From positions 1 to 64,000 of the forward strand of contig QIBA01000050.1 of the NCBI GenBank assembly GCA_003225175.1: a DNA stretch of 64,000 nucleotides. The letters are read 5' to 3'. The first letter of the stretch is position 1, and every line of letters begins with the position of its first letter. Positions 6,670-62,785 of the stretch are shown here, piece by piece. The position numbers and the translations under genes were made by a program. The notes beneath the pieces were generated by a model that saw only the letters and a program-made list of their open reading frames with translations, had not been told where the DNA came from and searched no databases. This DNA is from Acidobacteriota bacterium. GTDB taxonomy: Bacteria > Acidobacteriota > Terriglobia > Terriglobales > Acidobacteriaceae.

Positions 6670-7869
6670 ATGTCTTCGCATACCCGCGGTATTCATACCC
6701 GTACTATTCACGGCAATCTTTCGCCCGATCCCGCCACCGGGGCCATTCTCACACCCATTTATCAGACGACGACCTACGTGCAGGAAGCTGTTGGCGTGCA
6801 CAAGGGGTTTACTTACTCCCGGGCGGCGAATCCCACCGTTTCGGCACTCGAGGACGTGCTGGGATCTCTCGAGGGTGCGCCAACTTTATGTTTTTCAACC
6901 GGAATGGCCGCGATTACGACGCTGTTCCTGTCGATCCTGAAACAGGACGACCACGCCATCATCTCTGAGGTAGTTTATGGCGGGACCGTTCGCCTGTTTC
7001 GCCAGGTGCTTGAGGGCGTGGGCGTACGCGCAAGCTTTGTGGATACATCTGACATCGGTGCCGTCTCTGAGGCAATTGAGCCGCGCACCAAATTGATCTT
7101 CATTGAGACGCCTGCAAACCCGACGCTTAAGCTCACGGACATTGCTGCGGTTTCGCGCGTGACCCGCAAAGCGGGCGTGCTGCTTGCGGTCGATAATACA
7201 TTTCTGACGGCGGCGCTTCAGCCAGTGTTTGAGCTTGGGGCTGACATCAGCGTGCTCTCGACGACCAAGTACATCGAAGGCCACAATGCCACAGTAGGCG
7301 GGTCGCTCGCGACCAAAGACGAAGCGCTCCTGGAGCGCTTTCGACTGGTACGTAAAACGATCGGCTGCATTCAATCTCCGCTCGAGTCCTGGCTTACGTT
7401 ACGCGGGCTGAAGACGCTCAGCATGCGTCTTGAGCGGCACTCTGATAACGCTTTGGCGGTGGCGAGCTGGCTGGAGAAACATCCAACCGTCTCGCGAGTG
7501 TTTTATCCCGGATTGGCGTCGTTCCCACAATACGACTTGGCATGTCGCCAGCATGGCGCTCACGGAGGAATGCTCTCGTTTGAAGTGACAGGCGCAACTC
7601 CCGCAGCCCTGGAGCTGATGAAGTCAGTCAAGCTCTGTGCATTGGCAGAAAACCTGGGAGCGGCGGAAACACTTATTACACATCCGGCGAGCATGACTCA
7701 CGCGGACATTCCCCCAGAGACGCGTGAAGCGCTCGGCATCCCTGACGGATTGATTCGGCTTTCTGTCGGGCTTGAAGATCCGGCAGACATCATCGCCGAT
7801 CTCGAGCAGGCACTCGGCAAAGCCGAGGCTTGTAGCAGCACTGCATATATCGCGAGCGTGGCGTCATGA
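6670..7869 (+). CDS. Cystathionine gamma-synthase-like PLP enzyme
   Basis: Cys/Met-metabolism PLP-dependent enzyme of fold type I. Diagnostic parts: GAILTPIYQTTTYVQE, YSRAANPTVSALE (phosphate-binding Tyr and Arg), the VDNTF motif with the PLP aspartate, and STTKYIEGHN, whose Lys binds PLP. Length (399) is normal. The family includes cystathionine gamma-synthase, O-acetylhomoserine sulfhydrylase, and cystathionine and methionine gamma-lyases, and these cannot be told apart safely by motif. The partner gene looks like a cystathionine beta-lyase, so the forward transsulfuration role (activated homoserine plus cysteine to cystathionine) is the best guess. AGGAGG lies seven bases before ATG. The stop overlaps the next ATG (ATGA). 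Confidence 0.85.
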   Translation: MSSHTRGIHTRTIHGNLSPDPATGAILTPIYQTTTYVQEAVGVHKGFTYSRAANPTVSALEDVLGSLEGAPTLCFSTGMAAITTLFLSILKQDDHAIISEVVYGGTVRLFRQVLEGVGVRASFVDTSDIGAVSEAIEPRTKLIFIETPANPTLKLTDIAAVSRVTRKAGVLLAVDNTFLTAALQPVFELGADISVLSTTKYIEGHNATVGGSLATKDEALLERFRLVRKTIGCIQSPLESWLTLRGLKTLSMRLERHSDNALAVASWLEKHPTVSRVFYPGLASFPQYDLACRQHGAHGGMLSFEVTGATPAALELMKSVKLCALAENLGAAETLITHPASMTHADIPPETREALGIPDGLIRLSVGLEDPADIIADLEQALGKAEACSSTAYIASVAS

Positions 7870-38352: not shown

Positions 38353-40458
38353 TCATTCACCTCTCGTAGCCTGGGTTGCCCGGGAACCCTTGACCCATTG
38401 ATCTACCCAATCCCCCACTATCTTGTACCAAAGCTGGCTGTTCTGCGGCTTCAAGACCCAGTGCCCCTCATCGGGGAAATAGAGCATTTTCGATGGGACT
38501 TTCAGCAGTTGAAGCGTCGTGAACAGCTGAAACCCTTCGGAGATATCGAGCCTGTAATCCAGTTGCCCGTGCACGACCAGCGTGGGTGTCTTGAATTTGC
38601 TGACGTATTGATTCGGAGACCATTTTTTGTATGCAGTGGGATTCGTCCATGGAGTTCCTTTGAACTCCCAGACGTTGAACCACAGCTCTTCCGTCGTTCC
38701 AAAAGCGGAGACGGTGTTGAACATACCATCGTGCGAGACCATGCACTTGAAGCGTGTGGTGTGACCAAGCAACCAGTCGATGGCGTATCCGCCATAGGAC
38801 GCGCCCAGCGCACACTCACGCTCTTTATCTATGAACGGATACGTCTTCTCGACATAATCCAGGCCATTCATCAGGTCCATAATGGGCTTACCGCCCCAGT
38901 CCCCATTGATCTCATCAATGAATTTCTGCCCGTAACCGGTCGAGCCGCGTGGATTAATCAGGACTACAACATAACCGCTTGCCGCCATTAGCTCTGCATT
39001 CCAGCGGTACGACCATTCCTCTCCCCACTGTCCTTGTGGGCCGCCATGGATCAGAAACTTCACTGGATACTTCTGCCCAACGTTAAAACCGGGCGGTCTC
39101 AGGAGGAAGCCCTGAACTTTTGTCTTCTCCGCGCCTGTGAATTCAAACGATTCAATCGGAGACATGGCGATTTGCGACAACACGGCATCGTTAAGATGAG
39201 TTAATTGCTGCGCCTCAGCCGTTCCGTTTTGAACTATGGATGCTGTGTAGATCTCATTTGGTGCCATTACAGACTGCCGAGTAAAGACGATAGTCTTGCC
39301 GTCAGGACTGATAGCCGGCTCATCATTAGTGCCGGCAATCGCTTTTTCAGGGTCTCCGCCGCTAGCTTTTACGCGCCATATAGGCGCTCCTCCGTGCTCT
39401 TCGCCTGCGAAATAAATCGCGGATGAATCCGGAGTCCATGCGAAAGCCTCCACCCAAAGATCGAAATTCTTTGTCAGATCGGTCGTCATTCCGCTCTTAC
39501 ACTCGAACAAAAGCAGGCGAAAGCGGTCGCTTTCATATCCGGCACGGACTTGTGAACGATACGCAATGTAACGCCCATCAGGTGAATACAGCGGAGTAGA
39601 GTCGCTACCCGGGCTGGTCGATATCTTCCTCGGCGTTCCTCCCGTAATGGGAACGATGAAGACGTCATTATTTGTACTCGTGGCTTCGACTTCATCAATA
39701 TTGCTGGTAAATGCCACCTCCTGCCCGTCCGGAGAGATGGCATAGAGGTCCTGGCCACCGAGATTGAAGGGCGGAACATCGTGATCTCCCGGCGTGATGT
39801 CGACTGGAATGCCTCCTTCAGGGGCAACAACGAACAGATGGCTGCGCTTAAAGCGCGTGTAACTCGACCAATGGCGGTAAAAAAGACGCGTAAATGTCTT
39901 CGCTTTCACCTTGGATTTAGCATTTTCTTCGTCACGAACCTTGTTACAAGCGTCATCTTTGCAGTCGGGATACACCTCAGAGACGAACAAAATGTGCTTG
40001 CCATCGCGCGCCCAAACCGCTCCATCAGCCTCTGTGGACAGCGAAGTAAGCTGACGGGCCTGCCCAGATGGCGCTCCGGAAGCGCTATCGAAGCCTTCAA
40101 TCCATATTTGCGAGCCGCCAACAGCGCTTGATGTGTACGAAAAACTCTTTCCATCGGGCGAAAAACGTCCGCGATTCTCGCCGGCTTCGCCGCTCGTAAC
40201 CTGCTTTGCGTCGCCTCCAGCGGCGGAAATAAGCCAAAGGTGAGGCTTACGGGTGTTCTCTGTGAGGCTTACATCGACGGCTGAGAACATGATCCAGCGC
40301 CCATCTGGCGACACTTGGGGGTCGCCTATGCGCTTTAACGCCATCATGTCTGCGAAGGTAAATGGACGTTTTTGGCCCATTGCGGCAGGATTTTGCCGTG
40401 CATTCTGCGCGACAAAGACGCTAGCCGACGCTATTAAGAACGCAAGAATACGGCGCAT
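38353..40458 (-). CDS. S9-family prolyl oligopeptidase-type exopeptidase
   Basis: A signal peptide (RRILAFLIASASVFVAQ) indicates export. Residues about 30-410 form a WD40-like beta-propeller with repeated DPQVSPDGRWIMFSAVD, FSPDGKSFSYTSS, AISPDGQEVAFTS and YSPDGRYIAYRSQ blades. The C-terminal alpha/beta hydrolase has the nucleophile Ser in GASYGGYAIDW, the Asp in VVHGQLDYRLD and the His in DEGHWVLKP. This is the acylaminoacyl-peptidase/dipeptidyl-peptidase group. Length 701. It probably trims peptides in the periplasm. The same family is abundant in acidobacteria. Confidence 0.92.
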   Translation of the reverse strand: MRRILAFLIASASVFVAQNARQNPAAMGQKRPFTFADMMALKRIGDPQVSPDGRWIMFSAVDVSLTENTRKPHLWLISAAGGDAKQVTSGEAGENRGRFSPDGKSFSYTSSAVGGSQIWIEGFDSASGAPSGQARQLTSLSTEADGAVWARDGKHILFVSEVYPDCKDDACNKVRDEENAKSKVKAKTFTRLFYRHWSSYTRFKRSHLFVVAPEGGIPVDITPGDHDVPPFNLGGQDLYAISPDGQEVAFTSNIDEVEATSTNNDVFIVPITGGTPRKISTSPGSDSTPLYSPDGRYIAYRSQVRAGYESDRFRLLLFECKSGMTTDLTKNFDLWVEAFAWTPDSSAIYFAGEEHGGAPIWRVKASGGDPEKAIAGTNDEPAISPDGKTIVFTRQSVMAPNEIYTASIVQNGTAEAQQLTHLNDAVLSQIAMSPIESFEFTGAEKTKVQGFLLRPPGFNVGQKYPVKFLIHGGPQGQWGEEWSYRWNAELMAASGYVVVLINPRGSTGYGQKFIDEINGDWGGKPIMDLMNGLDYVEKTYPFIDKERECALGASYGGYAIDWLLGHTTRFKCMVSHDGMFNTVSAFGTTEELWFNVWEFKGTPWTNPTAYKKWSPNQYVSKFKTPTLVVHGQLDYRLDISEGFQLFTTLQLLKVPSKMLYFPDEGHWVLKPQNSQLWYKIVGDWVDQWVKGSRATQATRGE

Positions 40459-47230: not shown

Positions 47231-47400
47231 TGTGACTCCCTCCAGAAAAATCGTTTGGCTGCCGAGTCCCAGCCCATTTGCGCAATTGAGCTGGCGAAAG
47301 GTGCGCAGGGCTGTTGACAGTCGCAGAACATACCTAAGAACAATCGTTGAATTCAAGATAAAAAATCTCTATTTCAAATACTGAAATATGCTGAGGCCTG

Positions 47401-47545
47401 CAAGGAGAACCGGCCGCCCCGGCCGTGTTTTCGTGTGGGACTGCGACGAGCGTGCGATCTTCTGAGAATCAGAGAATTGTGATCTTTGAAAACTTCCTAA
47501 GGAACGCAAACAGAAAAACACGGCCGAGGCGGCCGGTTCTCCTTG
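47401..47545. repeat. MITE-like element with 32-bp terminal inverted repeats, copy A
   Basis: Left end CAAGGAGAACCGGCCGCCCC and on to CGGCCGTGTTTTC; the right end is the same in reverse complement with two differences over 32 bases. The 80-bp centre is non-coding. Its first 45 bases and last 35 match the reverse complement of the element at 50876-51018. Element A and element B are therefore two inverted copies of one family, not a single stem-loop. Confidence 0.85.
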
Positions 47546-47603
47546 CTTTCTGAAAGTTTTGAAAATTTTCGAGAAGTAAGGCCTTGGACATGGAGCGGGG
47601 TCG

Positions 47604-49296
47604 TTACTGCCGGTTCTTTGTCTCAGGCGCGCACTGCTTCAGTAGTTCGCGGATCGAGTCGTCCTGGGGAAAGTTTTCATTCGCCTTCTTTAGCACCTGG
47701 CACGCCTCGCCCGTTTTCTGGAGGGACGAGTACGTCCTGTTTAACAGCCGATAAAGCTCGGCGTCGTAAGGAATGACTTCGATGCCCTGTCGCAACACTT
47801 CAAGCGCGCGCGGCTCCTGGTGAGTTGCGATCAGCATCTTTGCCAACTGCTCGAAATCTGCAGGCTGCGTCATGCCACGCTGCCGAGCACGATCAAGATA
47901 GGCGATTGCCGCATTCAGCCCTTCTTGAGTTCTCTGCTGCAGCGACAGGTCGGCTAGCCCTTGCAGCACCGCCACATGATTTGGTTCCGTCTTGTCTAGC
48001 TCCTGCGCGAGCCTCCAATACCGCGGCCGGTATTCCGGATGCGAAAGCATGATCTGCCGGTAGGCTTGCAAGAGAGTGAGCGGAGGCACAGCAACTGTTT
48101 TTCCCGGCTCTGCGCTCAAGTGAACGAGATCGGGCAGTTGTGGCGTGGTCATCTTGAAGGCGGCATTGGGAAACGGCTCCTGAGGCGTTCGGACCACCCG
48201 ATGATTTGTGAGCACCGAGTGCGAGATCGCTTTCACATCGCGCTTGGGCATATGGCAGCTAATGCAATTGTCCGCCGGCTTCTGCTTCTGCCGCTCGGCA
48301 AGCGGAACGGAGCAGCTTTGCTCCGTGTGGCAGGTCAGGCAGCGCTGGCGGAAGTAATCTGGCGCTTCCGTGGCGGTCGGCTGTGTATGCGGATCATGGC
48401 AGGTAATACACCTCAATCTGCCCGCGCTTTGGCGATAGCATTTGCTCAAGCGCATCGAGAGATAGTGTTCGAGCAGATCGTCCTGCGGCGGCGATTGCGC
48501 CGTGAATGGCACCATGAAGATGCTTAACGTGCTGTCGAGGGTCGAGCCCGGACGAAAATCGCTGTAGTCCTTGGCTGCGTGAAGTATGCGGGCATCGCCG
48601 GTCTGGTGACAGGGAAGGCACACGTTATCAGCCAGCCATGCGGAAAGTCTGGCCGGATTCACGATCGTCTCCCGCGAGGACTGCTTGGGGACGTCCGCTA
48701 TGGCAACTTGTGCATCCCGGCAAGATTGCACGGCTAAAGCCGTAATCGGCGTACTGATAACCTGGTGACAGCGCCCAGGCATTGACGTTCGAATAAAACG
48801 AGAGCGGCGTCTCGAACAGATAATCTGCGCGCTGGACGATACCGCCGAAGCCGTTTGCTCCAGCGCCGATGATCCAATCTACTTTATGCGTCTCGCGGAA
48901 GACCTCTTTGCCGTCGGCAGCGACCTCAAACTCGCTTTGATATAGAGCCCCGTCTTTCGTGTATTGCTCAAAATGCCGGTTCAGATGCTGATCGAAAACT
49001 GAGGCAGAGGTTGGGATTGTCTTCAGAAGGGCAGCATCCACCTTGACCATGGATCGGCCCATATCGGTCCGCGAGTACTTTTCGTAGATGTCGTTATGAC
49101 AGAGAGCGCATTCCTGAGAGCCGACGTAAGCATTCGTTGATGGTTTTGCGTGTTCGGGCGCCGGGTTCGACTGGCGCGCCTTGTTCTCGGAACTGGGCTG
49201 TGCCACAACTGCGCATAGAAGAACTAATACCGCGATCTGCGCTGCACGGCTAAACGCTCGTTCGAAGTTTCGCTCTGCGCAATGGCGGTGCTTCAT
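47604..49296 (-). pseudogene. Multihaem cytochrome c with TPR tail, frameshifted
   Basis: Two overlapping frames make one gene. Upstream frame, from ATG 49296: a hydrophobic signal (AAQIAVLVLLCAVVAQ), haem motif CALCH, then GCTSCHSGRPQAV. After about 48680 the frame changes, and the downstream frame continues with RETIVNPARLSAWLADNVC, CLPCH, CITCH, CLTCH and CISCH, and then a TPR-like C-terminus (AVLQGLADLSLQQRTQEGL, ALEVLRQGIEVIPYD). Six CxxCH sites remain. Relatives of this family usually have a further CxxCH followed by GPG between the second and third sites, and I see none, so a small deletion probably accompanied the frame change (inference). The gene is periplasmic by design but would not produce a full protein. 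Confidence 0.75.
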
Positions 49297-49480
49297 GCGA
49301 AGTATGATGTGAGTCTTTATATCGCAATTTGGAAATCGGCGAGCGCGCGATGTTGATGGCGCGTGGAGTTGAGGAACTTCATGCAGGAAGGCAAAAGCCA
49401 CAGCCGGCCGAGCGGGGTTCCCGGCAGACGCCGCGTTTGCGGCTGCTGGGGTGAGACGGCGGCCGGATCCATGGGATCGC

Positions 49481-50782
49481 ATGCGCATCGTTGAGCTGCG
49501 GGTTCACTCCATTGCCATCGCTGATCCACCCTTGCGGAGTTCGTATGGACTTCATGCTCCTTATGCTCTCAGGTCCATTCTGGAACTTGAGAGCGAGGAT
49601 GGAATTGTGGGAATCAGCGAGACTCACGGCGGGGATGCTATCGCACAAGGCTTTCAGCAACTTCGGGAAAAAATCGTTGGCGCAGATGCATATCTCTTAG
49701 CCGGGAACCTGCTGCCGATGATCGACGCCAGCGCCTCGGGAGATCGCTCGCAGACGTATTACCTTCCCGGCGAAAATCCACTCGACGCTGCTGCGCGACT
49801 TTACTCGGCGATCGAGATCGCCTGTCTTGATCTGATCGGCAAGTCAGTGGCAAAACCCGCTTGTGATCTGCTTGGCGGCCGCGCGCGCAGCGAGGTTCCG
49901 TTCTCCGCGTATCCGTTCTATAAGCAGGCCGGCGGGGGCGGCGAAGGCGACGACGCGCGCTCCGACGAATACGGCGAGGCATTAACTCCAAAGCAGTTGG
50001 TAGTGCAGGTAAAACTGATGTTTGCGAAGTATGGATTTCGCGAGATCAAGTTCAAGGCGGGAGTGCTCGATCCCGCGGAGGAGATCGAGACCGTGCGCCA
50101 GCTTCGCGCAGGATTTGGGCCGAAGGTGCCGATTCGCCTCGATCCGAACTGCGCCTGGTCTGTGGCGACTTCCGTTGAAATTGGAAGAGCGCTACGCGAA
50201 GAGCTGGGGAATGGCGGCTATCTCGAAGACCCGACCGCAAACATCTCCGGAATGGCGGCGGTACGAAAGCAACTCGTCTCCGCAGGAGTGGATACTCCAT
50301 TGGCCAGCAATGTGGCTGTGACCGGCTTTGCCGATCTGCCGGAAGCGATCAAGACTGACGCGGTGCAGGTTGTGCTTTGCGATCCGCACTATTGGGGAGG
50401 GATTCAGCAGGTGCAACATCTCGGCAAGCTTTGCCACACCTTTGGCCTGGGATTGTCGATGCATTCCAACTCACACCTTGGCGTGTCGCTCATGGCAATG
50501 GCACAGGCGGCTGCCGCGACTCCGCAGCTCACATATGCATGCGATACGCACTATCCGTGGCAGTCAGAAGAAGACGAAGTTGTGGCAGGCGGCCGTGTTC
50601 CCATTGTGAACGGCTGCGTGCAGATTCCGGAAAAGCCGGGCTTAGGAGTGGAACTCGATCAGGATCAGCTTGCTCGCGGGCGAGAGCGCTATCGCAAGTG
50701 CAAGTACCGCAAGCGGGATGACGAAGCAGAGATGCGAAAGCACGTGGATCCGAATTGGCGAAGGGTCTTGCCCAGGTGGTGA
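49481..50782 (+). CDS. gudD: Glucarate dehydratase-like enolase-superfamily enzyme
   Basis: Dehydrates glucarate (and often its epimer idarate) to 5-dehydro-4-deoxyglucarate. Enolase fold with capping domain (residues 1-135) and barrel. The KxK pair (Lys190, Lys192 in REIKFKAGV), metal ligands Asp221 (RLDPNCAW) and Glu249 (YLEDPTANI), the Asn277 region (TPLASNVAVTGF) and the catalytic His328 (SMHSNSHLGVSL) are all in place. Length 433 from ATG 49481 is close to the family norm; a GTG at 49451 is an alternative. The C-terminus matches the KYRKRDDEAEMRKH pattern of GudD. It faces the HpcH/HpaI aldolase gene pair, which could process its product. Confidence 0.88.
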   Translation: MRIVELRVHSIAIADPPLRSSYGLHAPYALRSILELESEDGIVGISETHGGDAIAQGFQQLREKIVGADAYLLAGNLLPMIDASASGDRSQTYYLPGENPLDAAARLYSAIEIACLDLIGKSVAKPACDLLGGRARSEVPFSAYPFYKQAGGGGEGDDARSDEYGEALTPKQLVVQVKLMFAKYGFREIKFKAGVLDPAEEIETVRQLRAGFGPKVPIRLDPNCAWSVATSVEIGRALREELGNGGYLEDPTANISGMAAVRKQLVSAGVDTPLASNVAVTGFADLPEAIKTDAVQVVLCDPHYWGGIQQVQHLGKLCHTFGLGLSMHSNSHLGVSLMAMAQAAAATPQLTYACDTHYPWQSEEDEVVAGGRVPIVNGCVQIPEKPGLGVELDQDQLARGRERYRKCKYRKRDDEAEMRKHVDPNWRRVLPRW

Positions 50783-50790
50783 CGAAGCAG

Positions 50791-50889
50791 GGCAAAGGAG
50801 AACAGGGCGCAAAGGAGAACAGGGCGCAAAGGAGAACGGGCGCAAAGGAGAACCGGCCGCAAAGGAGAATCGGCGCAAAGGAGAACCGG
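50791..50889 (+). repeat. Tandem array of a 16-17 bp unit
   Basis: Six near-identical copies of GCAAAGGAGAACNGG(GC) follow one another directly after the gudD stop (unit starts near 50791, 50807, 50824, 50840, 50857 and 50873). The unit repeats the outer end (CAAAGGAGAACCGG) of the MITE-like element, into which the last copy merges at 50876. Confidence 0.85.
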
Positions 50890-51018
50890 CCGCCCTCGGC
50901 CGTGTTTTCTGCTTTCGGTTCTTAGACGTCCTCCGAGAGCACGTCTTTCAATTCAGGAGATCGCATCCGTGTTAGCAGTCCCCCACGAAAACACGGCCGG
51001 GGCGGCCGGTTCTCCTTG
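50876..51018. repeat. MITE-like element, copy B, inverted relative to copy A
   Basis: Ends CAAAGGAGAACCGGCCGCC... and its reverse complement ...GGCGGCCGGTTCTCCTTG, with both inner halves containing CGGCCGTGTTTTC. The internal 75 bp are related to copy A at 47401-47545 when reversed, in particular ACTGC..TGCGATCT near one end and CAGAAAACACGGCCGAGG near the other. Confidence 0.85.
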
Positions 51019-51019
51019 C

Positions 51020-51165
51020 GCGTTCTCGTAGCGTTCTCCTGTGCGTTCTCGTAGCGTTCTCCTGTGCGTTCTCGTAGCGTTCTCCTGTGCATTCTCGTAG
51101 CGTTCTCCTGTGCGCTCTTATAGCGTTCTACGTGTGCGTTCTCCTGCGCATTCTCGTGTGCGTTT
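51020..51165 (+). repeat. Tandem array of a 23-bp unit
   Basis: About six copies of GCGTTCTCGTAGCGTTCTCC plus TGT, with period 23 (starts 51020, 51043, 51066, 51089, then diverging copies at 51112 and 51136). Each unit is itself two copies of GCGTTCTC(C/G)T(G/A). It is complementary in sense to the left array (AGGAGAAC). No spacers, so not a CRISPR. Confidence 0.85.
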
Positions 51166-61021: not shown

Positions 61022-62785
61022 GTGACCCTGCGTGCAAAATTCCTGCTTGCCTTGCTGCTGATCTCCGGTGGCCTCACCACCGCGAGCCTGGTGGTCGTCA
61101 GGCGTGTGGTCACGAGCCACATACGCGCGCAGATTGTTCAAGACCTGCAGAACTCCGTTGCGACCTTCCAAAACGTACAGCGCCAGCGAGAGAGCACGCT
61201 CGCACACTCCGGTGATTTGATAGCCGACCTGCCAATTGTGCGGGCGCTTATGACCACGCAGCACGCAGTCACGATCCAGGACGTTTCCACGGGAATTTGG
61301 CGGACTTCGGGCAGTGATTTGCTCGTGCTCGCCGATGCAAATGGAAAAGTAATTGCGATTCAGGCGAATTCGATCGACATTCCGCTCGCCGAAACTCAAC
61401 AGCAACTGTCGCAATCCATGTCTTCATCGAGCCCCACGCTTTGGTGGAGCTGTGGAAGACATTTGTTTGAGGTTGCCGTCCGCCCAATTTACCTGGGGCC
61501 GAAAGAGTTAAACCGAGTAGTTGGTTTTCTGGCGTTAGGCTCCGAGATCGATGAGAAGGTTACCCGCGAATTAAGCGAGGTTGCCGCCAGCGAAGTCGTC
61601 TTTCGGGCAGACGATCGGTTTATGCAAACCACTCTGACTGCCATTCAGGAGACAGAGTTGGAGAGAAACCGCTCCGCGGCTTTTGCGGCGGTAAAAGCGC
61701 AGCAGATTCAGCTGAACAACGAACGCTTCCTGGCGAGGGAGGTTCAACTTTCCACCGTCCCGGTTGCAGTGCGGCTGACCGTCCTTAAATCGCTCGACCA
61801 GTCGAGCTGGTTCATAAGCCACCTCGATCGGGTTCTCGTCCTTCTTGGGGGTATCGCGCTCCTGCTTGGCGCCGGGCTGGTGTGGATCATCTCGCGAACG
61901 ATTACGCAGCCGCTGAGATCGCTCGTCGCAGGTGTGCGTGCCCTGGGAAAGTCGGACTTCGAGTTTCCGGTGACGCCCTACGGTGGAGACGAGGTTGCAC
62001 AACTGACGTCAGCGTTCGCAAGAATGCGGGCCGATCTGCAGCAGAGTCAGCGCCAGCTGATTGATAGTGAACGCCTCGCGACCATCGGTCGCATGGCCAG
62101 CTCCATATCGCACGACCTGAGACACCACTTATCTGCGATCATTGCGAACGCGGAATTCTTGAGCGATGATCGCCGCAGAAGTTCAGAACGGGAAGAGCTG
62201 TACCTGGAGATTCAAACCGCCGTTCATCAGATGAACGAACTGATCGATTCACTGCTGGAGTTTTCCCGGACGCGAGAGTCGCTTCGTCTCAACCCTTCAC
62301 ATCCCGAACAGGCGGTCCGTTCCGCGATCAATACCATCCGTATGCGATCGGAATTCCGTGATATCAGTATCGAAATGGGAGCGAACGGAACTTCAGAAGG
62401 AGCCTATGACATCAGGAAGCTGGAAAGGGTATTTCATAACCTGCTGCTGAATGCGTGCGAGGCGGTGTCGCCCAGCACCGGGAAAATCAGCGTCGACCTG
62501 CTGGAAAACAGGAACAACATCGAAATCCGCGTTACAGATAACGGACGCGGCATCCCGGACTATCTGCAGCACAGGATCTTTGAGCCGTTCTTCACTCAGG
62601 GAAAAGCCAATGGAACCGGATTAGGTTTAACCGTGGCGCAGAAGATCGTTGAGGACCACAGCGGAGACTTGCTTCTTGAAAGCAGCTCCGCAAAAGGAAC
62701 TACCTTCCTTGTCATGCTGCCACTTGGTCCCAGGAAACCGAGTGTGAGCTTTGGGACCAGCAACACCGCCGCCGTGACCCCGTAG
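61022..62785 (+). CDS. Sensor histidine kinase with HAMP domain
   Basis: Domains: an N-terminal helix (residues 7-27), a periplasmic sensor of about 240 residues, a second helix (270-290), a HAMP linker (290-343, ISRTITQPLRSLVAGVRALG), a HisKA dimerisation domain with phospho-His364 in ASSISHDLRHHLSA, and an ATPase domain with FHNLLLNACEAVS, DNGRGIPDYLQ and GTGLGLTVAQKIVEDHSGD. Length 587. The start is GTG 61022. The periplasmic part has a PAS/Cache-like pattern (LLVLADANGKVIAIQ) suggesting a small-molecule ligand. It is followed by a porin-like gene, so the pair may control outer-membrane uptake. Confidence 0.9.
   Translation: MTLRAKFLLALLLISGGLTTASLVVVRRVVTSHIRAQIVQDLQNSVATFQNVQRQRESTLAHSGDLIADLPIVRALMTTQHAVTIQDVSTGIWRTSGSDLLVLADANGKVIAIQANSIDIPLAETQQQLSQSMSSSSPTLWWSCGRHLFEVAVRPIYLGPKELNRVVGFLALGSEIDEKVTRELSEVAASEVVFRADDRFMQTTLTAIQETELERNRSAAFAAVKAQQIQLNNERFLAREVQLSTVPVAVRLTVLKSLDQSSWFISHLDRVLVLLGGIALLLGAGLVWIISRTITQPLRSLVAGVRALGKSDFEFPVTPYGGDEVAQLTSAFARMRADLQQSQRQLIDSERLATIGRMASSISHDLRHHLSAIIANAEFLSDDRRRSSEREELYLEIQTAVHQMNELIDSLLEFSRTRESLRLNPSHPEQAVRSAINTIRMRSEFRDISIEMGANGTSEGAYDIRKLERVFHNLLLNACEAVSPSTGKISVDLLENRNNIEIRVTDNGRGIPDYLQHRIFEPFFTQGKANGTGLGLTVAQKIVEDHSGDLLLESSSAKGTTFLVMLPLGPRKPSVSFGTSNTAAVTP

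Follow-up and report, generated by a model that had tools for sequence, protein, structure and literature searches.

REPINs are among the commonest repeats of bacterial genomes. They are defined as inverted doublets of REP sequences that are copied by RAYTs (PMC3116915, PMC8049555), and the RAYTs themselves have been described as mostly single-copy and without evidence of mobility (PMC8266576). In standard searches, a REP is recognised as a GTAG or GTGG tetranucleotide located 0–2 nt 5' of a 7–20 bp stem (PMC6006769). A derivation of REPINs from REPs flanking an IS200-like ancestor is merely suggested by Bertels and Rainey (PMC3116915).

Here we consider two elements, W1 and W2, in a stretch of 64,000 nt from a soil-dwelling Acidobacteriota bacterium (contig QIBA01000050.1, positions 1 to 64,000; hereafter the window). 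From our point of view, these elements are most probably REPINs (rough probability 0.9, judged from sequence), namely non-autonomous DNA on which a RAYT encoded elsewhere in the genome would act in trans. With the REPINs and BIMEs of Pseudomonas and E. coli and their RAYT (TnpA-REP) (PMC3116915, PMC8266576), they share the hairpin-forming inverted REP doublet, the extragenic position, the presence of REPs around the RAYT gene and a species-specific REP, but they differ from them by GGAG in place of GTAG/GTGG, by a low copy number and by a spacer between the REPs that spans ~40–105 nt across the family and is probably in part RAYT-derived in one subfamily. The head-head dimers of the GTAG superfamily of REPs (PMC3733652) likewise have their tags outside, lie 20–100 bp apart and include a REPtron beside the transposase, whereas no GTAG tag is found here. 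Class 3 TnpA-Y1 of Acidobacteria, with its CnGA-tagged structures (PMC6006769), is also an HUH transposase flanked by multicopy tagged hairpins; the RAYT described below has, however, the class 2-like Y motif YIKMNP and not Y....Q, and the tag is GGAG. Finally, IS200/IS605 elements (IS608, ISDra2) combine an HUH/Y1 transposase with subterminal hairpins and a 5' guide tetranucleotide, whereas the units described here are mostly without a gene and have near-identical inverted ends. Since the anatomy is that of a REPIN but the canonical GT[AG]G tag is replaced by GGAG at a distance of 3 nt from a 6-bp stem, we speak of a variant REPIN and not of a GTAG REP. What is found is a REPIN/RAYT system, variant by its tag, and not an unrelated new MITE class.

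Two REP doublets and their family

The features that the following description draws on are:

about 47400 to 47546, no strand: REPIN copy W1, two REPs with tags outward and a spacer of ~80 nt
47402 to 47432, + strand: REP of W1 (AAGGAGAACCGGCCGCCCCGGCCGTGTTTTC), tag GGAG, stem CGGCCG/CGGCCG
47514 to 47544, - strand: inverted REP of W1
50792 to 50886, + strand: tandem array left of W2, 17-nt unit GCAAAGGAGAACAGGGC, in which the tag word of the REP occurs
about 50877 to 51018, no strand: REPIN copy W2
50878 to 50908, + strand: REP of W2, 31/31 nt identical to the REP that neighbours the RAYT gene of contig C38
50987 to 51017, - strand: inverted REP of W2
51009 to 51164, + strand: tandem array with a 23-nt unit that includes GTTCTCC; it mirrors the left array imperfectly, in inverted orientation
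contig C38, 61396 to 61881: RAYT gene (protein P0001), flanked by copies of the window REP

Both window copies are ~143 bp long, with 32-bp inverted ends and a common inner flank of 45 nt, and the true edge of the unit is AAGGAG...CTCCTT. In inverted orientation, W1 and W2 agree by 98% over 45 nt at one end and by 75% over 48 nt at the other, and the internal inverted arms of W1 (37 nt) are 92% complementary. Folded as single-stranded DNA, W1 reaches -49.4 kcal/mol (z -8.9 vs shuffles) and W2 -48.2 kcal/mol (z -9.8). An earlier note on this DNA had proposed two related elements with inverted ends and common internal sequence, which the inverted alignment, the folding and the genome-wide repeats bear out, and its description of them as MITE-like, mobile or formerly mobile and about 145 bp long was right. 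The GGAG word, which it had likened to a Shine-Dalgarno sequence, is better read as a REP tag because it faces outward at both ends. An Rfam search of the window gave no match.

Each end is laid out as a tag (A)AGGAG, 3 nt, a stem CGGCCG, a loop of ~3–4 nt (CCCT-type) and a second stem CGGCCG, with few single-base variants; it is thus a REP palindrome, and two facing REPs form a REPIN doublet. With up to 1 mismatch allowed, the genome (5.73 Mb) has 27 matches (15+12) to the 17-nt end AAGGAGAACCGGCCGCC, compared to 0 for the reversed-pattern control; with 2 mismatches it has 30, compared to 3. Nearly all of these matches form tag-outward doublets of 105–171 bp, which amounts to some 11 inverted pairs spread over 8 contigs (C32, C38 with 2–3, C42, C50 with W1 and W2, C54, C64, C73 and C90); their ends are sharply defined across copies. 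In 99 related genomes, the same sequence never exceeds 2 matches per genome, the five congeners having at most 1 each. The position is largely extragenic: a long ORF overlaps none of the 10 REPIN loci tested and short ORFs (93 and 109 aa) occur at two. The genome search for the element end, run with the 17-nt end, hence returned dispersed copies with defined ends and not a sequence confined to the window. The family postulated by the earlier note is real, but its description as new is only partly right: in anatomy the elements are REP doublets, or REPINs, for which an IS200-like RAYT is the presumed mobiliser. On contig C132 (L030, around 435), a REP-like core lies within a long imperfect nested palindrome with arms unlike those of other copies.

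Surroundings of the copies

W1 has a broken cytochrome gene on one side and the gene of a TonB-type receptor on the other, at a synteny break relative to the congener, and W2 lies between the convergent gudD-like and aldo-keto reductase genes. The multihaem cytochrome/TPR gene (47604–49488) runs in two overlapping frames and misses ~98 nt compared to a single 598-aa ORF in the congener G001, in agreement with the decay noticed before. A second family of palindromic repeats (CGGCCGAGCGGGGTTCCCGGC...GGGGTGAGACGGCGGCCG, 49404–49471) is located immediately before the start codon of the gudD-like gene, with relatives on several contigs of the same genome (twice within the REP loop on C90) and in four congeners.

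The interval between the gudD-like and the aldo-keto reductase gene measures 423 bp with W2 in the window and 199 bp without a REPIN in G001, where the intergenic DNA is too diverged for exact insertion junctions or target duplications of W2. This site bears on the idea that the elements are immobile and are kept because they serve the host, as bidirectional terminators of transcription or as hairpins for RNA processing. Their extragenic position and the location of W2 between convergent genes would fit such a role; the dispersal of nearly identical copies, the occurrence of another REP in the congeners examined and the empty syntenic site make it very improbable, although REPINs could have secondary effects on the host.

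The two strongest tandem arrays of the window flank W2 and repeat its tag word (GGAGAAC/GTTCTCC). Across the genome, tandem repeats within 200 bp are found at 7 of 11 REPIN loci and at 17 of 98 intergenic controls (p = 0.002); replication slippage at the hairpin and an insertion preference are both possible explanations. On contig C90, the copy C90c (L041, 6200–6596) is centred in a perfect 115-nt flanking inverted repeat, an unusually long palindrome that could also be an assembly product. Flanking palindromy was dismissed as a general feature of REPIN loci, since besides this perfect case only W2 displays it, and weakly so (p about 0.03).

A RAYT gene surrounded by REPs of the family

A PF01797 profile search of the genome yielded ten Y1 transposase matches, one of which (C38:61525–61722) sits exactly between the family members at 61226–61351 and 61913–62158. 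The encoded protein P0001 carries the HUH motif EHVH as well as YIKMNP, with the catalytic Tyr in a YIxxNP context. Its best profile is REP_Tyr_transpos (NF047646, NCBIfam REP-associated tyrosine transposase; 79 bits, E = 3e-22, curated cut-off 80), PF01797 scores 21.7 bits at a curated cut-off of 23, and the sole PDB match is 4ER8, TnpA-REP (E = 0.017). The transposase gene overlooked by the earlier note is found on C38, where the RAYT lies between copies of the same REP. That the window lacks a transposase, as stated before, stands uncontradicted, but the genome does encode this RAYT and has a frameshifted IS200-like transposase on C90. The bases right beside the C38 RAYT (GAGTCATGGC...) stand in place of a REP core, and the REPs there therefore belong to neighbouring REPINs; a second full copy of the C38 RAYT DNA was not found in the genome.

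RAYT orthologs of relatives share 63% (G004) and 57% (G005) identity, and at most RAYT loci examined, a REP specific to the species occurs as an inverted pair near the gene. G005 has a compact unit, consisting of a REP, ~25 nt, a GTG start, the gene up to its stop codon and an inverted REP. Two congeners have the REP tags AAGGAC or AGGAC. For comparison, we anchored 13 RAYT-associated REPs on the loop by hand; they come from the genome itself, from congeners and from RAYT loci that are more distant. Stem pairing occurs in 94% of cells, a percentage that is partly circular because the 20-mers were chosen by palindrome; the diversity of stems with complementarity kept is still informative, with 26 double-sided changes vs 8.6 in shuffles and slid controls all far below.

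These data also speak to the notion that the elements are MITEs of a classical insertion sequence with a DDE transposase, having true terminal inverted repeats and target-site duplications and being unrelated to REP/RAYT. A length of ~145 bp with 32-bp inverted ends is what such an element could look like, but each end is itself palindromic with an outside tag, the ends surround a Y1/HUH transposase gene and the transposases found beside them with PF01797 are HUH/Y1, the stems covary across RAYT loci, and inspection of the copy edges by eye gave no consistent direct duplication. We thus regard a DDE origin as extremely improbable.

The C38 RAYT is the probable rather than the proven mobiliser, since a second, IS200-like transposase on C90 (L041, ~6834–7279) also adjoins four REPIN or part-REPIN copies. 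As these lie directly upstream of it, one could speculate that this enzyme, and not the C38 RAYT, is the mobiliser. However, its frame is shifted near 6940, a further repeat interrupts the adjacent REP, it is the ends of the C38 RAYT that the spacers match (see below) and congeneric REPs flank orthologs of the C38 RAYT, so that we consider the C90 enzyme unlikely in this role and infer that the C38 RAYT acts on these copies.

A REPIN in the proposed mechanism would be a non-autonomous mobile DNA, with a spacer enclosed by two REP palindromes in inverted orientation, which as single-stranded DNA (e.g. lagging-strand template) may fold into a long hairpin; movement would then presumably include a single-stranded step. 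The C38 RAYT, an HUH/Y1 transposase, would recognise the tag and stem-loop at each end, nick beside them and copy or move the unit to new, mostly intergenic sites. The observed defined ends, dispersed copies, RAYT among the same REPs, stem covariation and element-free syntenic site in a congener support the REPIN reading, whereas the non-canonical tag and its spacing, a RAYT just under two curated cut-offs, the low copy number (~11 doublets), the missing REP core right beside the C38 RAYT, the W1 and W2 spacers without a match to any RAYT found and the C90 transposase next to copies count against it.

Two further loci carry transposases of this kind. A second RAYT on C38 (36930–37376; L038, 1340–2032), 44% identical and with one stop codon within the aligned stretch, has 83-nt inverted repeats on its flanks and a different REP (GTGGCACAGCCGCCCTCGGCTGTGG). 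On C71 (L031, 1310–2740), an IS200-like transposase has its own palindromic repeats, and a truncated copy lies nearby between the same repeats.

Spacers and the origin of the doublets

REPIN interiors, with the REPs removed, were compared to the 60 nt at the start and the 60 nt at the end of the RAYT coding region, order being required. Matches were obtained for C90a (z 9.1), C90c (7.4), C38a (7.3) and C73 (6.1), and further for C38b (5.0), C90b (4.9), C64 (4.1) and C38c (3.2), i.e. for about half of the copies. In C90a/b/c, C73 and C64, the spacer matches the RAYT 3' end and then the 5' end, both ends being clear in the three C90 copies (TATTCTTGAACGTCCTGCT, 3' end; TTCAAGCGTCGAAGCATA, 5' end), while in C38a/b/c essentially the 5' end alone matches. 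The spacers of W1, W2, C32, C42 and C54 gave no match to the RAYT ends in this test, and those of W1 and W2 nothing significant against all RAYT loci found. In addition, the spacer of C38a finds a match in the G005 RAYT, in its leader and around the start codon (0 of 300 shuffles as good), which argues for the direction from RAYT to REPIN.

The sister species G004 possesses a full REPIN-RAYT-REPIN composite (C87:35191–36014) and, 3 kb away (38633–39127), a second copy of it with a clean internal deletion of ~337 bp, the catalytic core being gone; the similarity of the two copies ends at the outer REPs. The truncated copy on C71 is a possible parallel. In five standard REPINs of G004 and G005 tested, RAYT traces were undetectable (z at most 1.6), and the claim of origin is therefore limited to one subfamily and the G004 deletion copy. 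As such, the derivation of at least one spacer subfamily (the C38 and C90 copies) from a RAYT unit by internal deletion is, by sequence comparison, well supported, whereas such an origin of REPINs in general is unproven.

One could go further and propose that in this acidobacterial genus REPINs repeatedly arise by internal deletion from a RAYT unit bounded by REPs, a unit mobile now or until recently, with an early product (the G004 RAYT without catalytic core) and late products (spacers of the genome studied here that retain just ~20–30 nt of the gene's 3' and 5' ends) both preserved; we give this proposal roughly even odds. We found no open-access paper joining RAYT, REP sequences and internal deletion.

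Overall, the present case describes a REP/RAYT system with a non-GTAG tag in an acidobacterial lineage. The spacers bearing RAYT ends, together with the core-deleted REP-bounded RAYT, make the proposed origin of REPINs directly testable. If repeated internal deletion proves true, it would provide sequence evidence for that origin and would contradict the view that RAYTs never move.
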